23,358 bases of DNA, taken from IMG/VR virus record IMGVR_UViG_3300032046_000226, positions 1 to 23,358 of that record. One strand, written 5' to 3'. Positions 383-16,965 of this stretch are shown in pieces (within the stretch, counting starts at the first letter, position 1; every line of letters begins with the position of its first letter). This DNA comes from a virus. Under the pieces are notes generated by a model, which saw only the letters and a program-made list of their open reading frames with translations, did not search any database and was not told where the DNA came from. The translations under genes and the position numbers were made by a program.

Positions 383-838
383 CTAGGCTATTGCTACAGT
401 CAATCCCGGCTGGATTTTGACGAGGACGTTAGTAGTCGGTTTCTCGGGGTCGATGGCGACCACCGCGCCGATGATAAGGTTGCCGCCTGTGGTTGCACCG
501 ACAGCTACTAGAACGGTTTGCTGGTTGCCTGCCTCTGCATTGAACGCGAGGCAGCCAACGTCGGCCTGTATCGGTGTGTCCTTGATAAAGGAGCAGACGC
601 CGCTTGTCCAGCACTTGATCTTCATGGCACCGCCAACGTCTACTACCGTTTCCATCGCAACACCGACGAACATGTCTGCCGCTGCAGGTGTAGTTACCGA
701 GGTAGCTGTGCCTGCAGCGATGATTCTGACGATATCGCCCTTGTAGATCGTTGTCCCACTCAACATGGGATAGGCAACAATATCGCCATCCTCTTTTGCG
801 TAGAGTTCGGCGGGAACAGTCGAGGCTGCAACTGACAT
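383..838 (-). CDS. Capsid decoration-like protein, upstream paralog
   Basis: This 151-aa protein starts at an ATG preceded by GAGGAGGTGAGCTAG. It lies 5 nt after the protease/scaffold gene and 16 nt before its paralog. It has no membrane segment, few charges, and many Gly, Val, Thr and Ala residues, as in small beta-sandwich or beta-barrel capsid-surface proteins. Shared blocks with the next gene are KGDIVR (about residues 33-38), a V/AGxAxETV block (about 58-65) and a C-x(4)-V/G-S-x-IK block (about 75-87). DUF2190-like decoration or head-fibre function is inferred from size, composition and place in the head operon. A second copy may form a two-protein lattice or be a dispensable surface variant. 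Confidence 0.6.
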   Translation of the reverse strand: MSVAASTVPAELYAKEDGDIVAYPMLSGTTIYKGDIVRIIAAGTATSVTTPAAADMFVGVAMETVVDVGGAMKIKCWTSGVCSFIKDTPIQADVGCLAFNAEAGNQQTVLVAVGATTGGNLIIGAVVAIDPEKPTTNVLVKIQPGLTVAIA

Positions 839-843
839 CTAGC

Positions 844-1407
844 TCACCTCCTCGATTCCGCGAGGACCCGCTTCGCAATCGGCGAGTTGATGTCCGCACC
901 GATCTTACTAAAGACTTCAACTGTCTCGGGGGATGGCGCATTCTCGCTAGCATCCGCCCGCTGGTACTCCTTGAAGTCAATCACTTCCTTGTTCTTTTCA
1001 AGGAGTTCGAAGACGAGATCGCCCACGGATACAGTCCGTTTCGCGTCTCCCTCTCCGAATGTCACAAGTTGCTCCGCTGGGACAGGTCCTCCATGAAGCG
1101 GACGAAGCGACAACAGGGCGAACACGATCTCCCTCACGGCAGGAATGAACTTGCCGTCGTGGAACAACCGATCCGTGTCGCCTTTGGCGCGCTCTTCCTG
1201 CACGGCCTTCATCATGGCCTGCGCCTGAGCACCTGTCTGCCGGATCATCTCGTCCTGCTCACGCTTCATCTGCATGACGGCATTGTTGGCGTCCCGCACG
1301 GCTTGCACATCCGGGTTGAGCTTCCGGAACCGCTCGATTGCGGCCATCGCCTGCTCAAGAGTGATATCAGGCACTTCGGTGTTGATTGTCGTTTCTGCTG
1401 TTGGCAT
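844..1407 (-). CDS. Nested in-frame scaffold product (internal start)
   Basis: An ATG at 1407 (residue 248 of the full protein) is preceded by AGGAGGTGA at 1416-1424 with an 8-nt spacer, as good as the sites of the neighbouring genes. It would yield a 187-aa protein equal to the C-terminal part: MPTAETT, then a helical Gln/Arg/Glu segment (about residues 20-85) and an acidic tail. It begins just where the protease domain ends, so it would be a free scaffold as in Mu Z or lambda Nu3. The ribosome site and start codon are seen directly; use of the start is inferred. Confidence 0.55.
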   Translation of the reverse strand: MPTAETTINTEVPDITLEQAMAAIERFRKLNPDVQAVRDANNAVMQMKREQDEMIRQTGAQAQAMMKAVQEERAKGDTDRLFHDGKFIPAVREIVFALLSLRPLHGGPVPAEQLVTFGEGDAKRTVSVGDLVFELLEKNKEVIDFKEYQRADASENAPSPETVEVFSKIGADINSPIAKRVLAESRR

Positions 1408-2148
1408 TATGATTTTCACCTCCTGGGGTGTAAAGACTTCGCCGCCCTGCCAAGCCTCAAGCGGCATTGAAAAGCCGACGCAATCTTCAGCAAACACCCG
1501 CGCGTCGGCTATACGGGGTTCGCGGACAAGTGAAACCTCTGCGATTCCACTCTTGTCGCGCTTGATCGCCACGGACAGAGCCTTGGCTGTGTCTTTCACC
1601 AGGTCCCAGGCGGCATCTGTGAAATCAAGGTCGCAAAACAGTTCCTTTCCCTTCCGGAAGAGGCCCTTGGCTGTCGCCAGGGCTCCATCCAGTACGGTGC
1701 TCATGTGTTCGAGCTTGACCGGAATAGGGGGTCCCGATGCGTGAGCAGTTACCCACGTATCCATGTCCGCTTCGGTCACCTCGATATCCCTGTCGGGATA
1801 ACTGCCGGCCTCGAACAGTTTCGCACGCCGGGTTACGGCGAACACTGCAGTGTCGATGTTCATAATTACCTCCTCAGTCTTGATACCTGCCATAAACTGC
1901 GTCACCGCATCCAGAGCCGCCGCCTCATCCTCCGGCACGAAGTCCACGGACATTGCGACCCACCTGCCGTCACTGCGTTTTGTATACTTGTGGCGAACGG
2001 CGGCCCACGCTGTATCGAAAGCCTTCGATTCGTCGCCCTCATAGGTCTTGAGGGCTGCGTTGAACGCGGCGGCGAATATCTCAAGTGCGTGCGCCGGCAA
2101 GCCCTTGAACCGGCTGTCGGACTTGAGATCGGAAACGGTATAGGGCAT
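844..2148 (-). CDS. ChaB-domain, prohead protease and scaffold fusion
   Basis: 434 aa from the ATG at 2148. AGGAGG lies 7 nt upstream of it; an ATG at 2154 overlaps the previous stop but sits only 1 nt from the same site. Residues 1-62 resemble the ChaB domain (MPYTVSDLKS, LPAHALEIFAAAFNAA, AFDTAWAAVRHKY). Residues 96-230 look like a Mu gpI-type phage protease: KLEH with His148, and SLVREP with Ser207 are candidate catalytic positions. Residues 248-434 are charged, Gln/Glu-rich and coiled-coil-like, as expected of a scaffold. This protease-then-scaffold order, with an in-frame internal start, is known from Mu (I/Z) and lambda (C/Nu3). A ChaB domain at the front is unusual. Catalytic residues are assigned by eye only. 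Confidence 0.75.
   Translation of the reverse strand: MPYTVSDLKSDSRFKGLPAHALEIFAAAFNAALKTYEGDESKAFDTAWAAVRHKYTKRSDGRWVAMSVDFVPEDEAAALDAVTQFMAGIKTEEVIMNIDTAVFAVTRRAKLFEAGSYPDRDIEVTEADMDTWVTAHASGPPIPVKLEHMSTVLDGALATAKGLFRKGKELFCDLDFTDAAWDLVKDTAKALSVAIKRDKSGIAEVSLVREPRIADARVFAEDCVGFSMPLEAWQGGEVFTPQEVKIIMPTAETTINTEVPDITLEQAMAAIERFRKLNPDVQAVRDANNAVMQMKREQDEMIRQTGAQAQAMMKAVQEERAKGDTDRLFHDGKFIPAVREIVFALLSLRPLHGGPVPAEQLVTFGEGDAKRTVSVGDLVFELLEKNKEVIDFKEYQRADASENAPSPETVEVFSKIGADINSPIAKRVLAESRR
1861..1875 (-). promoter_or_regulatory. Internal ribosome binding site before the protease domain
   Basis: GAGGAGGT at 1868-1875 lies 4 nt ahead of an in-frame ATG at 1863 (residue 96). Initiation here would make a 339-aa protease-scaffold protein without the ChaB domain. 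The site encodes Glu-Glu-Val, so chance occurrence is possible. Confidence 0.4.
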
Positions 2149-2150
2149 AG

Positions 2151-2435
2151 TCATACCTCCTCTTCTGTAAAGCTGAACCCACACCCCGGCGTCAGGTCCG
2201 AGGGTTCTTCAGGCCATCGCTGGCATATCTCCGGCTTGTCCGGGCCGTGAAGATCACAGTCGCCGAGCGGGTTGAGGTGCGGGCAGGGAAACTTCAGAAC
2301 CGCCATATCAGTGCCGTGTATCTCGCAACCGCGGGCACGAAGCCAGTCAATGATGTCCGGTATGGAAAGATCGACCGCGAAGCCGATAATGCGGCAGCAA
2401 GCGCCACATCGCAGACAAGAGCCAACCCGTTTCAA
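2151..2435 (-). CDS. YkgJ-type cysteine-cluster protein
   Basis: 94 aa from a TTG at 2435 that overlaps the MuF stop (TTGA), ending in an ATGA overlap region with the next gene. The N-terminus has CLRCGACC (residues 8-15), followed by CPHL (about 50) and CDLH, CQRW and a terminal PGCGF. This Cys pattern is that of the YkgJ/UPF0153 family, predicted metal- or Fe-S-binding proteins of unknown activity. Members turn up inside phage head operons. Here it sits between minor head protein and protease, so a role in head assembly or in modifying a head protein is possible but not shown. The start is weakly supported: no clear ribosome site, so translation is probably coupled. Confidence 0.75.
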   Translation of the reverse strand: MKRVGSCLRCGACCRIIGFAVDLSIPDIIDWLRARGCEIHGTDMAVLKFPCPHLNPLGDCDLHGPDKPEICQRWPEEPSDLTPGCGFSFTEEEV

Positions 2436-3295
2436 GCCGCCATTCCAATCTGGGTCGCTACCCGCCGAGCCCCCTTGGTTCGCCAGTCCAATATCTCCAT
2501 CGAGGTAGTTCCGAATCCCGGCTGTGGCTTCGGACCGGCGGCAGGGTCGGTATACTCAATGCCCTCTTCCCAGGCGAAAATCGGCGCGAGAATGCACCTA
2601 CATGCGACATGTGCAGGCGGCAACCACCCACTGATCGCATTCTTGGGTATCCGTTTGCCGTCTCGATAGGCGCAGATTTCGCAGATGCGAGCATCATGGA
2701 TGCCCATGATCTCGTAGCCCACGATGTCGTCGCTGGAGTCGAACTCCTGCCAACGCGCCTGCTCGTAAATCTTCGCCGTCTCCGTCCGGGCAATCCGTTC
2801 GAGTCGATCACGCCCAAAGGCTGTAAATACGGATTCGAGTTCGCGCACGACCTCCCGGTCGGTCAAACCCTGCTCAATACTTCTGATGATCGTATCCTTG
2901 GCTCGTTGGAGAACAGCCGCCTGCTCCTCGCCCACTATCCGCAGTGAATAGCGGCGATACCAGTTCACACCTACTTCGGGAACGAATGGCTCAGCCTGGA
3001 ACCGTAGTCCCCTTCGGATGGCTTCGGCGAGTCGAAGTTCACTTCTGGCGACTACCGCGCCGTAGGCGTATGCCTGAGCCAATAGGCGAACCAGGGCATC
3101 GAGCAGGTTTTTGATCGGTTTCGTGCCTAGAATGAAGCTATCGGGCACTATCCCTTCTACCAACTGCAGTCGGATGAGCTCAGCCTGCCAGGATGAGGCT
3201 TTCTGCGCAGAGCCAAGGAATGCCGCTTCGATCTGAGCCAACCGCGTCAGCGTCGCTTCCGGTCGGAAGAGTTGAACGCGCTCTGCACTGGTCAT
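2432..3295 (-). CDS. MuF-type minor head / head morphogenesis protein
   Basis: 287 aa from the ATG at 3295, which overlaps the preceding stop as ATGA. The C-terminal half carries the MuF (SPP1 gp7 / Mu gp30) signature: RIARTET at about 167-173, DARICEIC with Cys205 and Cys208, DGK, and PPAHVACRC with His229, Cys232 and Cys234, a likely metal-binding set. The N-terminal half is helical. MuF proteins sit at the portal inside the procapsid and act in head assembly or DNA ejection. Gene order portal, unknown, MuF, protease fits. The open frame extends upstream to 3529 but that part lies inside the preceding gene in another frame and looks like shadow coding. Confidence 0.9.
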   Translation of the reverse strand: MTSAERVQLFRPEATLTRLAQIEAAFLGSAQKASSWQAELIRLQLVEGIVPDSFILGTKPIKNLLDALVRLLAQAYAYGAVVARSELRLAEAIRRGLRFQAEPFVPEVGVNWYRRYSLRIVGEEQAAVLQRAKDTIIRSIEQGLTDREVVRELESVFTAFGRDRLERIARTETAKIYEQARWQEFDSSDDIVGYEIMGIHDARICEICAYRDGKRIPKNAISGWLPPAHVACRCILAPIFAWEEGIEYTDPAAGPKPQPGFGTTSMEILDWRTKGARRVATQIGMAA

Positions 3296-4266
3296 CAGAG
3301 CATCGTAATTATGCGGTCGGGAAGCGCGTAGAAGTCCACGAGCTTGTTGTTTGTCAGGTTGCCGGATACGAAGGCACTGGGTCTGGTGAACATCGGGATA
3401 ACGAACCCCGCCGCCGTGAACGTATTGACCGGGGTAGACTCCATCTCGACCGTAAATGTCGGAGTCCCTAGTACCGTCTTGACCTGGGCGACCTCGCGTA
3501 TGCTCGTGTTGCCGTCCACGTTCTCCCACAGGAGCACATACTCACCACCTTTGAACTGGGCGGTGGCTGCCAGCGTAAATGTGGCCCCGTCCACACTCAC
3601 AATAGCCTGTTTGCCGACAACCCCATGTTTCCACTGGACCGCATCACTGGCCAGGGGCACGGCTATGTTCTTGGTCGTGGCGTCTTGCAGCACAAACGTC
3701 ATGGTCGGCGGACCACCCGGATCGGCCAGTGCCGCAACTGCCAAGACCGGGGCGGCTATGATCTTGGCAGTGTCAAGCACTCCATCGACAGCGGCATAGG
3801 TAGAGGCCCCAGCCATTCCCGTCAGCCGTCCGAATCTATGCATCCCCGCCGTAGTCGGTTGAGCATCGTCGGCGACCATCGTTCCCTTGGGGAAAACGAG
3901 GTGGCTGGCGACGCGCAACCCACTGGACTCAAAGGCAGCTTCGTTTGCCTCCCAAGCAATACGGTAGCCGACAGAGGCCAGATAGGCCGCCAGAACAGGG
4001 CTTGCGAGGTCGAGGTCAACTCGGAAGTAGTCATTGGGCAAGGTGATTGCGTTCTTGACAACGCTATCGCGAAACACTGCGGATGCTTCTATGGCATCAT
4101 CCGCGTTCGTCAGAGCCGTCACGTCCACCCGATGCTCAAAGGTCTCATCCTCGGCTGCATCGGCTATCGTGACGAGCCGAACACTTCCGTCAAGCGCCTC
4201 CTGGACGGCCTGCCGCTTTTTGGCTATGTTGTCGTAGTACTTACGGAGCTGGAGAGCTACTGCCAT
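3295..4266 (-). CDS. Unknown phage structural protein
   Basis: 323 aa. The ATG follows AAGGAGTG and the gene overlaps the end of the portal gene by 26 nt; its stop forms ATGA with MuF. I do not recognise the family. Residues 1-35 are helical and basic (LQLRKYYDNIAKKR). The rest is rich in Val, Thr, Ala and alternating hydrophobics, suggesting beta-sandwich domains, with one Pro/Gly turn (DPGGPPTMTF) near residue 183. Lying between portal and MuF in an operon of head genes, it is probably a virion or assembly protein. No transmembrane segment or signal peptide is evident. Confidence 0.75.
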   Translation of the reverse strand: MAVALQLRKYYDNIAKKRQAVQEALDGSVRLVTIADAAEDETFEHRVDVTALTNADDAIEASAVFRDSVVKNAITLPNDYFRVDLDLASPVLAAYLASVGYRIAWEANEAAFESSGLRVASHLVFPKGTMVADDAQPTTAGMHRFGRLTGMAGASTYAAVDGVLDTAKIIAAPVLAVAALADPGGPPTMTFVLQDATTKNIAVPLASDAVQWKHGVVGKQAIVSVDGATFTLAATAQFKGGEYVLLWENVDGNTSIREVAQVKTVLGTPTFTVEMESTPVNTFTAAGFVIPMFTRPSAFVSGNLTNNKLVDFYALPDRIITML

Positions 4267-12698: not shown

Positions 12699-12751
12699 GC
12701 CCCCGCACTGTGGTATCAGCCGGGGGCAGGCCAAACCTACAAAGGAGGTTT
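12699..12751 (+). promoter_or_regulatory. Extra stems around the clamp ribosome site
   Basis: GCCCCCG (12699-12705) pairs with CGGGGGC (12721-12727). AAACCT (12733-12738) pairs with AGGTTT (12746-12751), which overlaps the AAAGGAGG ribosome site (12741-12748). Clamp translation may thus be held down. Read from sequence; no test possible here. Confidence 0.45.
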
Positions 12752-12761
12752 GACAAGTACC

Positions 12762-14552
12762 ATGGTAACCGTACGCGAATCCACAATCAAGCTGGAGGTA
12801 GCTATCAGCTACCAGTGGGCGCTAGACGCCCATGCCGCAATCATGCGGCGCATTGACAATTGCCGCAGGGCTATCCGACTGTGGCTGGGGACCCGCAGGG
12901 ATAACGCGCGGGCGAACGTGAAACAGTTCCGACTCATTATGCACACGCAGGCGGAAGTATGGCGCACAAGTCTCGCCGCGTCCCTCTTGGGGGTCCGCCC
13001 TTCCGACATCGGCACTTTGCGCGCGATTCTTGCGAACCCCGAGGCGTTCGCGCCTGCGGGTGCGGCGAAAGAGCCCTGGGAGATGACCGCGGCTGAGTTT
13101 GTCTCCAGACCCATTTCGGATCACGTCTACGAACTACTCAAAAAGGAGTTCTTCGGGAGCGATCAATATCGGATCAGCGAACTTGATAAGACTACAGAAG
13201 GCAGGGCTCAACTCCATCGCGTCTTGATTGAACGTGAATTAAACCAGGGCAGGACCCTTCTCCCCGAGGTGCTTGGCGACTACCCCGACCTTGCGGCGAA
13301 CTATGGGAAGGTCGCGCCGACCCCCGAGCCGACCGCGCCGAAAGGCAAGACAACGCGGCGCATTACCAGAGTTCGGGCCGATGGTGACATGAGCGTGCCC
13401 AATCGACTAGGCGCGGAGATTGCCTGCGACCTAAAGGAGTTACGAGCGGCAGTCGAGCAGGTCAAGCGGGCCATTGCCTCACGCACGAGCCTGCCGATCC
13501 TCGGGCATATTCTGCTGACGCCAGAGGATTCCCGCCTTCGACTGACAGCAACCGACCTGGAAATCGGCATGGAAACGAGTATTCTTGCGAACGTGGATTC
13601 CAAACTGGCAAGGGCGATTGCCGTGCCTGCTGGCGCGTTCCTTGACGCGCTAAACACGCGGAATACCGGTGACGGCGCTGTACGACTGACAACAGGCCGG
13701 GTGGACAAGCAAGCGGCAGTCGAGGTCAAGATCGGCACAGGCGCAATCAAGATCATGACGCTGCCTGCTGAGGAGTTCCCCATGCTTGCCGAACTGCAAA
13801 ATGCAACCGAGTGGCAGGCGGTCCCCGATCTTCTTGACGCAGTTTACCGCGTCAAGTTCGCCGCTTCCGCTGACGAGTCCAGGCGAATACTGACAGGGGT
13901 ACTACTCGCAGGGAACAGGCTCGCCGCAACTGACACTTTCCGCATTCCGGTCTGTGCCGTGCCGTACGAGTTCCCCGGTTCCGGCGTTGTAGTCCCCGCG
14001 CGGGCATTCGACATGCTCACCAAAGCGACCGCGAAGCTGGACAGGTCCGGTATGCAGATGAGGGTATCCGACACGCAGGCAGAGTTCCGGGTTGGCGATC
14101 TGACGTTTCGTTGCCGACTGATCGAAGGCGGATTCCCCAACTTCGACAAGGTGATACCCGATCACTCCGACTGGCAGATACAGGTGGATCGCGACCAATT
14201 GGATTCCGCACTTGCCGACGTGTCTGTCGTTGCGAAAGAGAATTCCTACCGCACGCGCTTCGACCTGACCGGCACTCGAAAACTCAGAGTTTCGGCTCAG
14301 TCCGGCAATCTGGGCAAGGCGGAAGCGGAAGTGGCTGTGCAGGCGCACTTCGGCAAGAACATTCCATGCGACAGCCAACGCAGCAGTGTCCACATGGTCT
14401 TCAACAACCGCTTCATACTGGAGGCCCTATACGCGGCGGCGGGAGCCGACATGATCACCATTGCTGGCACGGGCCAGGTATCGCCAGTAGTCATTACGGC
14501 GCAGGATCGGCCCGGCTGGCAGTGCGTCCTGATGCCGATGCAACTCGACTAA
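12762..14552 (+). CDS. dnaN: DNA polymerase III beta sliding clamp with N-terminal extension
   Basis: 596 aa from the ATG at 12762 (AAAGGAGG 13 nt upstream; a TTG at 12750 is too close). Residues about 222-596 are a full three-domain DnaN: SLPILGHILL, LTATDLEIGMETS, LPAEEFPML, VVPARAFDML, FRCRLIEGGFPNFDKVIP and the terminal VLMPMQL, matching E. coli TLPILGNLLL, FTSKLVDGRFPDY and VVMPMRL. Clamps ring DNA and tether polymerase. Usual length is near 370, so about 220 extra residues precede it: a helical Arg-rich part (10-80), PWEMTAAEF (about 105-113), and GRTLLPEVLGDYPDL (about 163-177), motifs I associate with large polyvalent phage proteins. No ribosome site precedes the internal Met at residue 210, so the fusion appears genuine. 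Confidence 0.9.
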   Translation: MVTVRESTIKLEVAISYQWALDAHAAIMRRIDNCRRAIRLWLGTRRDNARANVKQFRLIMHTQAEVWRTSLAASLLGVRPSDIGTLRAILANPEAFAPAGAAKEPWEMTAAEFVSRPISDHVYELLKKEFFGSDQYRISELDKTTEGRAQLHRVLIERELNQGRTLLPEVLGDYPDLAANYGKVAPTPEPTAPKGKTTRRITRVRADGDMSVPNRLGAEIACDLKELRAAVEQVKRAIASRTSLPILGHILLTPEDSRLRLTATDLEIGMETSILANVDSKLARAIAVPAGAFLDALNTRNTGDGAVRLTTGRVDKQAAVEVKIGTGAIKIMTLPAEEFPMLAELQNATEWQAVPDLLDAVYRVKFAASADESRRILTGVLLAGNRLAATDTFRIPVCAVPYEFPGSGVVVPARAFDMLTKATAKLDRSGMQMRVSDTQAEFRVGDLTFRCRLIEGGFPNFDKVIPDHSDWQIQVDRDQLDSALADVSVVAKENSYRTRFDLTGTRKLRVSAQSGNLGKAEAEVAVQAHFGKNIPCDSQRSSVHMVFNNRFILEALYAAAGADMITIAGTGQVSPVVITAQDRPGWQCVLMPMQLD

Positions 14553-15584: not shown

Positions 15585-15759
15585 GCAAACCGTACGAGTC
15601 CAGCTCATGATCACCCCCGAGCTCGAGCAGGGGATTGAGGAGATCATCCCGATCCTCGCCGAACGGGAGGGGTGCAGCCAGCGCGAGATCACGAAGCGTC
15701 GCATCCACGAAGATGCCTTGCGGCTCTACATCAAAGTCATCAAAGGGGGCAAGATATAA
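15577..15759 (+). CDS. Small protein, possible ribbon-helix-helix regulator
   Basis: 60 aa; ATG 7 nt after GAGGAGGTGA, overlapping the previous gene by 8 nt. VRVQLMITPELEQGIEEII could be a DNA-binding strand plus helix and HEDALRLYIKVIKG a second helix, the size and order of MetJ/Arc repressors. The middle (REGCSQREITKRR) is longer than usual, so this is only a suggestion. Last gene before the terminator. Confidence 0.55.
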   Translation: MAEQTVRVQLMITPELEQGIEEIIPILAEREGCSQREITKRRIHEDALRLYIKVIKGGKI

Positions 15760-15766
15760 GTGTTGA

Positions 15767-15798
15767 GCCCCCGGCATCTTTTGCCGGGGGCTTTCTTT
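15767..15798 (+). terminator. Intrinsic terminator of the rightward operon
   Basis: GCCCCCGGCA (15767-15776), loop TCTTT, TGCCGGGGGC (15782-15791), then TTTCTTT (15792-15798). A perfect 10-bp GC-rich stem with a U-tract, 7 nt after the last plus-strand stop and directly against the convergent gene end. Confidence 0.92.
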
Positions 15799-16250
15799 CA
15801 CCTGAACAGTAGTTCCCCAAGTCCGTCCCACCCCATATCCTCTTTGACCACGGTGCGCAGTCCGAGCCCCTCCTTGCGCATAACACAGCGGCGAACGCGC
15901 CTGATGATGGCGCGCGCGCGCTCCTCAGTGAAAGCTCGCTCCTTCCACGACCCGCCGTTCAAGTAGGGTTCATTAGGCCAGTGCTTCACGATGTCGGCGA
16001 TGGATACGTCTTTATCGCAGGACTCCTCGAAGACGCCCTGCTCAAAGTCGTTGACGTTGCCGGAGGCGTAGGCAAAGCGAATGTCGAGCCAGAGCAAGGC
16101 CGCCAGGGGGGTCCGATCCGACCACTGGCCCTCAACGTATCCGCGCCGCGAGTGACGTTCGGCTGCCCACCTGCGGTATGCGAGATCAGCCGAGAGTGCG
16201 TCAAGGGCGTCGCCGCCCCCGATACCCGCACCAAAAGTCCGCCTTGACAC
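15798..16250 (-). CDS. Hypothetical protein (150 aa)
   Basis: GTG at 16250 with AGGAGAGG 4 nt upstream is preferred; the frame is open to 16304. Residues: basic start (MSRRTFGAGIGGGD), DALDALSADLAYRRWAAERH, WSDRTPLAALLWLDIRF, DIVKHWPNEPYL, and a C-terminal helical RARAIIRRVRRCVMRKEGLGLR. The mix of helices and basic end suggests a nucleic-acid-binding protein or regulator. Last gene of the right-hand leftward block, facing the terminator at its 3' end. Not recognised. Confidence 0.65.
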   Translation of the reverse strand: MSRRTFGAGIGGGDALDALSADLAYRRWAAERHSRRGYVEGQWSDRTPLAALLWLDIRFAYASGNVNDFEQGVFEESCDKDVSIADIVKHWPNEPYLNGGSWKERAFTEERARAIIRRVRRCVMRKEGLGLRTVVKEDMGWDGLGELLFR

Positions 16251-16369
16251 CGCGCCTCTCCTGATGGTAGAATCTATGTGCCGGTGGACAAAATTCGGCT
16301 TCATGCCGTGTGATCGCGTCTCGATCCTATATCCCCGGCACTTGGCAAGGTGTCTGATTGGTTCTACCA

Positions 16370-16381
16370 GAGAGCGCTCTC
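16370..16381. promoter_or_regulatory. Perfect 12-bp palindrome GAGAGCGCTCTC
   Basis: In the 145-nt gap 16251-16395 between two minus-strand genes. A smaller inverted repeat GATCG/CGATC lies near 16310-16325. Could be an operator for the gene at 15798-16250. Nothing else is seen in this gap. Confidence 0.4.
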
Positions 16382-16395
16382 GGCGACGGGGGCGC

Positions 16396-16536
16396 TTATC
16401 CCACTATGCCCTCCCCCGAGTGCCATAGACGCCCGCATCTCGGACACCCGAAGTAACCGTTGTCGCCGCCGACCATTGGCAGCCGACAATACTTACAGAT
16501 CAGACTGATCGTAACGACCACTTGCCAGACGTTCAT
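16396..16536 (-). CDS. Small zinc-ribbon protein (46 aa)
   Basis: The ATG at 16536 overlaps the previous stop (ATGA), so translation is probably coupled; there is no strong ribosome site. Sequence MNVWQVVVTISLICKYC, then GYFGCPRCGRLWHSGEG: two C-x(2)-C knuckles 13 residues apart (Cys14/17 and Cys31/34), a compact zinc ribbon. Very short, but the pattern is clear. Confidence 0.65.
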   Translation of the reverse strand: MNVWQVVVTISLICKYCRLPMVGGDNGYFGCPRCGRLWHSGEGIVG

Positions 16537-16745
16537 TTCAGCCACTTTCGAGCTTCTCTCAGCCGGGCGCGTTTGCGTTCGTCCTTGATCGCTACCACCT
16601 TCCTCTGCCCGTCGACCTCGGCGATCAGGCGCTCTATCAACTCCGCCTTGCGTCTGATCTCCGGCATCGCAAAAAGGTTCTCGGCGGCAACCAACCAGGT
16701 TCGTATTTCGCTCAATTCCTCTGCGGTGATCGGTTCGTCAGCCAT
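16533..16745 (-). CDS. Helical small hypothetical protein (70 aa)
   Basis: ATG at 16745 with GGGAGG 9 nt upstream, overlapping the upstream stop by 8 nt. Begins MADEPITAEELSEIRTWL, then KAELIERLIAEVDGQRK and a basic helical end (KDERKRARLREARKWLK). Its start resembles that of the upstream gene (MSDEPLSEQELEAMITGL) and the two start junctions share GACGAACCG, so part duplication is likely. Phages often have such AEELxxI-type small proteins. Confidence 0.65.
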   Translation of the reverse strand: MADEPITAEELSEIRTWLVAAENLFAMPEIRRKAELIERLIAEVDGQRKVVAIKDERKRARLREARKWLK

Positions 16746-16965
16746 TCGGGTGCGCCTCCCTCACCAGCCGCCTTAACCGCTTAACCTCAGTAATCAGGCA
16801 AGCGCGCACGGGATGGCTGCACCGCGACGCATGCTCACCACGAGGCCAGCCACACTCGGCACAACCGAGGTATTGCTCATCTCGGGCAGAATCGTGGCAG
16901 TCAACCGGTTTAAGTCCGGTAATCATCGCCTCCAACTCCTGCTCTGAGAGCGGTTCGTCAGACAT
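16738..16965 (-). CDS. Small Cys/His-rich protein (75 aa)
   Basis: ATG at 16965 with GGGAGGAG upstream, overlapping the previous stop by 8 nt; the open frame to 17106 is rejected because it lies within the upstream gene. Begins MSDEPLSEQELEAMITGLK; the middle has GCAECGWPRGEHASRCSHP, a C-x(2)-C...H...C-x-H metal-binding candidate; ends with helix TEVKRLRRLVREAH. Confidence 0.65.
   Translation of the reverse strand: MSDEPLSEQELEAMITGLKPVDCHDSARDEQYLGCAECGWPRGEHASRCSHPVRACLITEVKRLRRLVREAHPNG

Follow-up and report, generated by a model that had tools for sequence, protein, structure and literature searches.

In phage Mu, the head protease (I) and its scaffold (Z) are read in a single frame, the scaffold being started internally within the protease gene. 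The herpesvirus UL26/UL26.5 pair obeys the same nested protease-scaffold logic, and the annotation of Stenotrophomonas phage phiSHP3 likewise places a scaffold inside the protease gene (orf32/orf33). ChaB, to our knowledge, is known only as a putative regulator of a cation antiporter. The structure of the Escherichia coli protein (1sg7) was solved in 2004 with its function not established, and the structure paper ties a charged loop to cation regulation (PMC514712). Here we describe a gene in a 23,358-bp IMG/VR virus fragment (the window) that combines a ChaB domain, a head protease and a scaffold, together with a survey of related fusions.

Architecture of the gene

The gene comprises 434 stop-free codons, running from 2148 to 844 on the minus strand. 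Its parts, its ribosome sites and its two flanking genes are listed below. The SD matches were scored against TAAGGAGGTGATC, and each gap runs from the final G of GGAGG up to the ATG.

2151..2435, minus: CxxCxxCC protein, upstream neighbour (PF03692, E 1.2e-05)
844..2148, minus: gene for ChaB, head protease and scaffold as a single 434-aa frame, ending with the stop codon 846-844
2155..2161, minus: ribosome site of start 1, AGGAGGT, 7-nt match, gap of 7 nt to ATG 2148
1951..2148, minus: ChaB domain, residues 1-66 (Pfam PF06150; 1sg7 by sequence and fold)
1840..1950, minus: disordered linker 1, residues 67-103, containing start 2 (pLDDT <50)
1868..1874, minus: ribosome site of start 2, AGGAGGT, 7-nt match, gap of 5 nt to ATG 1863
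1861..1863, minus: start 2, codon 96; predicted product protease plus scaffold, 339 aa
1459..1839, minus: head-maturation protease domain, residues 104-230 (alignment of 22 proteins; fold)
1707-1705, minus: His148, invariant in the alignment of 22 proteins, putative catalytic residue
1575-1573, minus: Ser192, invariant in the same alignment, putative catalytic residue
1366..1446, minus: disordered linker 2, about residues 235-261, containing start 3 (pLDDT <50)
1416..1424, minus: ribosome site of start 3, AGGAGGTGA, 9-nt match, gap of 11 nt to ATG 1407
1405..1407, minus: start 3, codon 248; predicted product scaffold alone, 187 aa
847..1359, minus: helical scaffold region, residues 264-434 (model; phrog_976)
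383..838, minus: virion structural protein, downstream neighbour (phrog_1731, E 6.9e-11)

The N-terminal domain is certainly ChaB. Residues 17-64 match PF06150 with E 6.5e-16 (59.1 bits against the curated cut-off of 27), the sequence search also matches the domain to E. coli ChaB, and the folds superimpose with a Z of 7.9 and an rmsd of 2.0 over 65 aligned residues. The window protein misses the cut-off of the cation transport regulator ChaB equivalog NF007136 (33.5 bits against 120). The viral ChaBs retain P38, N50, E69, W77 and A79 (1sg7 numbering), which are conserved in free cellular ChaBs; the pattern used for the genome search fixed W77 and A79, and left N50, P38 and E69 free. The charged loop (loop 2) proposed for cation regulation is missing from the viral ChaBs. 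The simplest common reading of the domain may be that of a small protein- or nucleic-acid-docking module used in head assembly.

The protein was modeled with AlphaFold2 from an alignment (A5) of 22 ChaB-fused proteins, at a mean pLDDT of 71; the values are mostly above 85 in ChaB and 65-92 in much of the protease domain. The ordered regions are residues 1-66, 104-230 and 264-391, approximately, and confidence is low in the two linkers, at 67-103 and 234-261. In the protease part Gly115 and Pro211 are invariant among the 22 aligned proteins, as are His148 and Ser192. The top PDB matches of the model by Foldseek are herpesvirus capsid proteases, also of middling strength (E 2.5e-3). When residues 97-239 were realigned by structure, T4 gp21 and the herpesvirus proteases came first with a middling Z of about 7.6, compared to 4.9 and below for unrelated MCE rows. 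Weak tblastn matches link the middle part to Bacillus and Staphylococcus phage head maturation proteases. Pfam gives no protease match to the window protein, Mu-like_Pro (PF10123) included, and the protease-scaffold part, searched by sequence against the PDB, returned nothing relevant. As judged from sequence and model, the middle domain is a head protease of the assemblin/Mu I type with predicted activity. Behind it, the scaffold region contains a long helix in the model (residues 279-330), and residues 278-405 match the head maturation protease family phrog_976 with E 9.5e-08. The window tail resembles the C-terminal part of this family, as expected for a scaffold carried on a protease.

On the minus strand, the genes ahead of the ChaB gene encode, in order, the large terminase subunit, a portal of the Mu type (PF06074, E 5e-68), a protein of no family, MuF (PF04233, E 7e-16) and the CxxCxxCC protein. 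A full-length homologue, on a second viral contig (L014), has the order terminase, portal, another gene, ChaB gene, phrog_1731 gene and major head protein. The phrog_1731 gene thus occupies the matching place in both contigs; a small ORF of L014 (5692-5997) stops just ahead of the ChaB gene, as the CxxCxxCC protein does in the window. The major capsid gene of the window probably lies past the contig end. The no-family ORF (3295-4266, minus) encodes a 323-aa protein and overlaps the long MuF frame; in L014, unlike the window, nothing comparable separates the portal from the next gene. Elsewhere in the window (12750-14552, plus), a DNA polymerase III beta clamp is extended at its N-terminus by some 220 aa that belong to no family.

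Three in-frame starts

The preliminary description had proposed that strong ribosome sites precede three in-frame ATGs, at 2148, 1863 and 1407, and that these mark the domain borders. Both observations hold. The three ATGs share one frame and are led by SD matches of 7, 7 and 9 nt, and the two internal starts (codons 96 and 248) fall inside the two disordered linkers of the model. The gap of 11 nt ahead of ATG 1407 is at the long end of SD spacing. Of the other ATGs, that at 2154, upstream of start 1, is too near the SD, and that at codon 66 (1953) has a match of just 5 nt. A 7-nt match at a suitable distance precedes 0.64% of codons in the minus-strand genes of the window; given this background, its occurrence at two of the 13 internal ATGs of the gene has a p of 0.003. 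The other listed genes of the window contain 73 internal ATGs, and not one has an SD match of at least 6 nt. Shuffling of synonymous codons did not make the SD sites of the window significant, and gave no sign that silent positions are selected; the test has little power here, since SD-like sequence is already dictated by residues such as EEV. As the encoded residues force the SD, the support for internal starts is positional and comparative.

ChaB fusions in viruses and cells

When the whole protein was used as the query, IMG/VR, GTDB genomes and phage records yielded no relatives, and peptide patterns were too specific in the pattern scans; an alignment of ChaB only was productive. A first search with ChaB alone gave 31 viral loci, in which ChaB always headed a longer frame (one was cut by the contig end). 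A broader alignment raised the viral loci to 103, with 92 fused, eight free and three cut by contig ends, and the fusion partners were mostly head proteases. With the same query, ChaB was free and mostly short in roughly 76 of 80 loci from bacterial and archaeal genomes, where the phage-like fusions were limited to two loci (L174 and L181) and perhaps a third that is cut (L148). This contrast between viruses and cells comes from one query consisting mainly of fused viral ChaBs, so the absolute proportions may be biased; an earlier scan from just three seeds, E. coli ChaB among them, agreed on the viral result. The ChaB-protease fusion, which the preliminary description had regarded as new and had suggested seeking in other phages, recurs in other viruses and is not rare. 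An assembly error as its origin is ruled out by its presence in 92 viral contigs.

A Pfam scan of 58 fused proteins identified ChaB in all 58, Mu-like_Pro in 11, DUF2213 in three and Peptidase_S78_2 in two. The four commonest named head maturation protease PHROGs had 20, 19, 13 and 10 members among the fused proteins, with overlap. The nearest long gene upstream of the fusion is most often a portal or MuF-like gene, and the nearest downstream is most often a major head protein. One protein (L011, 6001-9465, 1,154 aa) joins ChaB, Peptidase_S77 and Gp23 in one frame by Pfam. Three others (L020, L022, L085) likewise seem to unite ChaB, a T4-type protease and a Gp23-like part in one frame of some 1,150 aa, the Pfam confirmation being for L011 only. 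A second small module sits beside ChaB, or between protease and scaffold, in L016, L042, L065, L043, L015 and others; it is DUF6582 in six of the 58 proteins, and further look-alikes were recognized by eye.

Several free ChaB genes are also of note. Free ChaB genes of 66 aa occur in phages at L100 (6001-6201) and at L079, L091, L093, L096, L097, L102 and L110; that of L100 has the major capsid gene on one side and a head-tail adaptor on the other. A 2.1-kb unverified clone labelled as a Salmonella phage (L008, OR851326.1) is probably host DNA, since its free ChaB is nearly E. coli-like. Among actinobacteria, one ChaB (L190) is joined to a Rho_N domain by Pfam, and in nine Geodermatophilus/Blastococcus loci (L163, L173, L179, L183, L186, L188, L189, L192, L193) ChaB is followed by a Rho_N-like region. 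This region hints at a nucleic-acid role.

Conservation of the internal starts

Two full-length homologues of the window protein were available for comparison, L014 at 36% identity and L042 at 29%, the latter with an inserted module. The scaffold start is present in both at the protease/scaffold border, as ATG 255 led by an unchanged AGGAGGTGA in L014 and as ATG 337 led by GAGGT in L042. Across 63 non-redundant fused genes, we then counted the in-frame internal ATGs led by a 7-nt SD, deriving the expectation from the non-ATG codons of the same genes. There were 36 such ATGs against 5.6 expected (p about 1e-17), whereas out-of-frame ATGs in these genes served as control and gave no excess (5 against 7.6 expected). 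With one gene per supercluster (15 in all) the count was 5.9 against 0.83 expected, at a median p of 2e-4. By inspection of the 63 genes, the SD-led internal ATGs mostly lie behind the protease part. The claim of a nested scaffold start of the kind known from Mu I/Z and lambda C/Nu3 is therefore borne out by its conservation in the two homologues and across diverse ChaB fusions, and the nested arrangement is well supported at the sequence level.

The start that would skip ChaB fared less evenly. It is strong in the window, its counterpart in L014 is a TTG led by GGAGGTG, and starts behind ChaB with a 6-nt SD recur across the 63 genes (12 against 2.4 expected, p 9e-6). However, the L042 counterpart is an ATG with a degenerate site, and significance is lost when each supercluster is represented by a single gene (1.2 against 0.4 expected). 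Related genes thus provide part of the support for this start. Of the two internal sites whose conservation had been proposed as a check, the scaffold start is conserved and the ChaB-skipping start only weakly so. A version of the gene with three products is plausible.

Proposed mechanism and alternatives

A head-gene role of the fusion is indicated because it lies between portal/MuF-type genes upstream and major head proteins downstream. We consider it probable that the product of the gene is a prohead protease attached to the scaffold it acts on and headed by ChaB, operating as follows. The start at 1407 would supply free scaffold in excess. The scaffold would co-assemble with the capsid protein and recruit the fewer copies of the long, protease-bearing forms. 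Once the prohead closed, the protease would digest the scaffold and itself, ahead of DNA packaging. ChaB might serve as a small folded docking module that takes the minor full-length form to a fixed site in the prohead, with the portal, the capsid shell or early-packaged nucleic acid as candidate docking sites. The start at 1863 might yield some ChaB-free protease, by which the dose could be tuned. ChaB would probably be freed by the protease and then be lost or retained in the head. For ChaB in tailed viruses at large, there is close to an even chance that it is mainly a head-assembly module, joined repeatedly to different prohead proteases (of the T4 gp21/S77, XkdF/S78, DUF2213 and Mu I types), and that some of the ChaB-protease genes make three products by way of internal starts, ChaB being confined to the minor one.

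It is quite possible, if somewhat short of an even chance, that there are two products only, the full-length protein and the nested scaffold, such that the 1863 site is incidental and ChaB is never omitted. The loss of significance at one gene per supercluster, the degenerate L042 site and the lack of an SD-led ATG at the ChaB border in many fused relatives all favor this. The 7-nt SD of the 1863 site, its good spacing and its position in a disordered linker argue for a genuine start, as do the GGAGGTG-led TTG at the matching place of L014 and the recurrence above expectation across the 63 genes. That the full-length protein is the sole product, the SD-like sequences reflecting linker residues such as EEV, KE and GG, would account for the synonymous shuffles reproducing the SD strength; the excess is absent, however, from non-ATG codons of these genes and from out-of-frame ATGs, and we regard this reading as quite improbable.

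The long form might instead be the accidental one, with 1863 as the main protease start and ChaB once a gene by itself, just upstream, whose stop codon disappeared, so that readthrough now gives the long form. Free ChaB genes do occur in phage head clusters, such as that of L100, but in-frame fusions make up 92 of the 103 viral loci, many without an SD-led border ATG, and in the window a 7-nt SD also leads the first ATG of the gene; we thus find such an origin very improbable. A last alternative treats ChaB as cargo, which would be packed via the protease-scaffold, cut loose and delivered with the DNA to act like the host ChaB. This agrees with the retention of the five residues conserved in host ChaB and with the joining of ChaB to several protease classes. 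Nonetheless, it is unlikely, in that the viral ChaBs are devoid of the charged loop to which cation regulation has been ascribed (PMC514712), and the free genes in head clusters are explained just as well by a local role in the head.

Comparison with known systems

The presence of ChaB in viral head gene clusters moves the question of its function to a clearly assayable system, and opens assays of head assembly, protease recruitment and scaffold removal. ChaB is easier to detect than the protease, and for this reason it is useful as a tag for annotating the highly diverse phage head proteases that are missed by profile searches. In the open-access library searched, we found no description of a ChaB-prohead protease fusion. 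In the same library, queries on ChaB with phage, capsid, prohead and protease gave only the 2004 structure paper as relevant to ChaB; other matches to "ChaB" were unrelated strings, such as strain names and cHAB blooms. Annotated phage records already hold an example of a ChaB fusion, in a methanogen virus. This ORF (15657-16883 of Methanomicrobiales virus vir524) encodes a 408-aa protein with an N-terminal ChaB in a head gene cluster, as in the window; its protease-like and scaffold-like parts are recognized by eye only, and apart from ChaB, BLAST detects no similarity between it and the window protein.

The window ChaB shares with E. coli ChaB (1sg7, PMC514712) the fold, the core residues and the exposed conserved residues. 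It differs in being fused to a head protease, in the absence of charged loop 2 and in having no cha operon context. The middle domain has a fold like those of herpesvirus assemblin (UL26/UL26.5) and T4 gp21, at a sequence identity of only 7-17%, and those proteases have no ChaB domain. The nested scaffold is an ordinary arrangement of the Mu I/Z type: the window gene has in common with Mu the single frame for protease and scaffold, the internal scaffold start and a neighbourhood of Mu-type terminase, portal and MuF genes. Without the Mu-like_Pro Pfam match, it departs from Mu by adding the N-terminal ChaB and a possible third start, and it is ChaB as a recurrent module of prohead proteases, as recognized from sequence, that is new as far as the open-access papers searched show.
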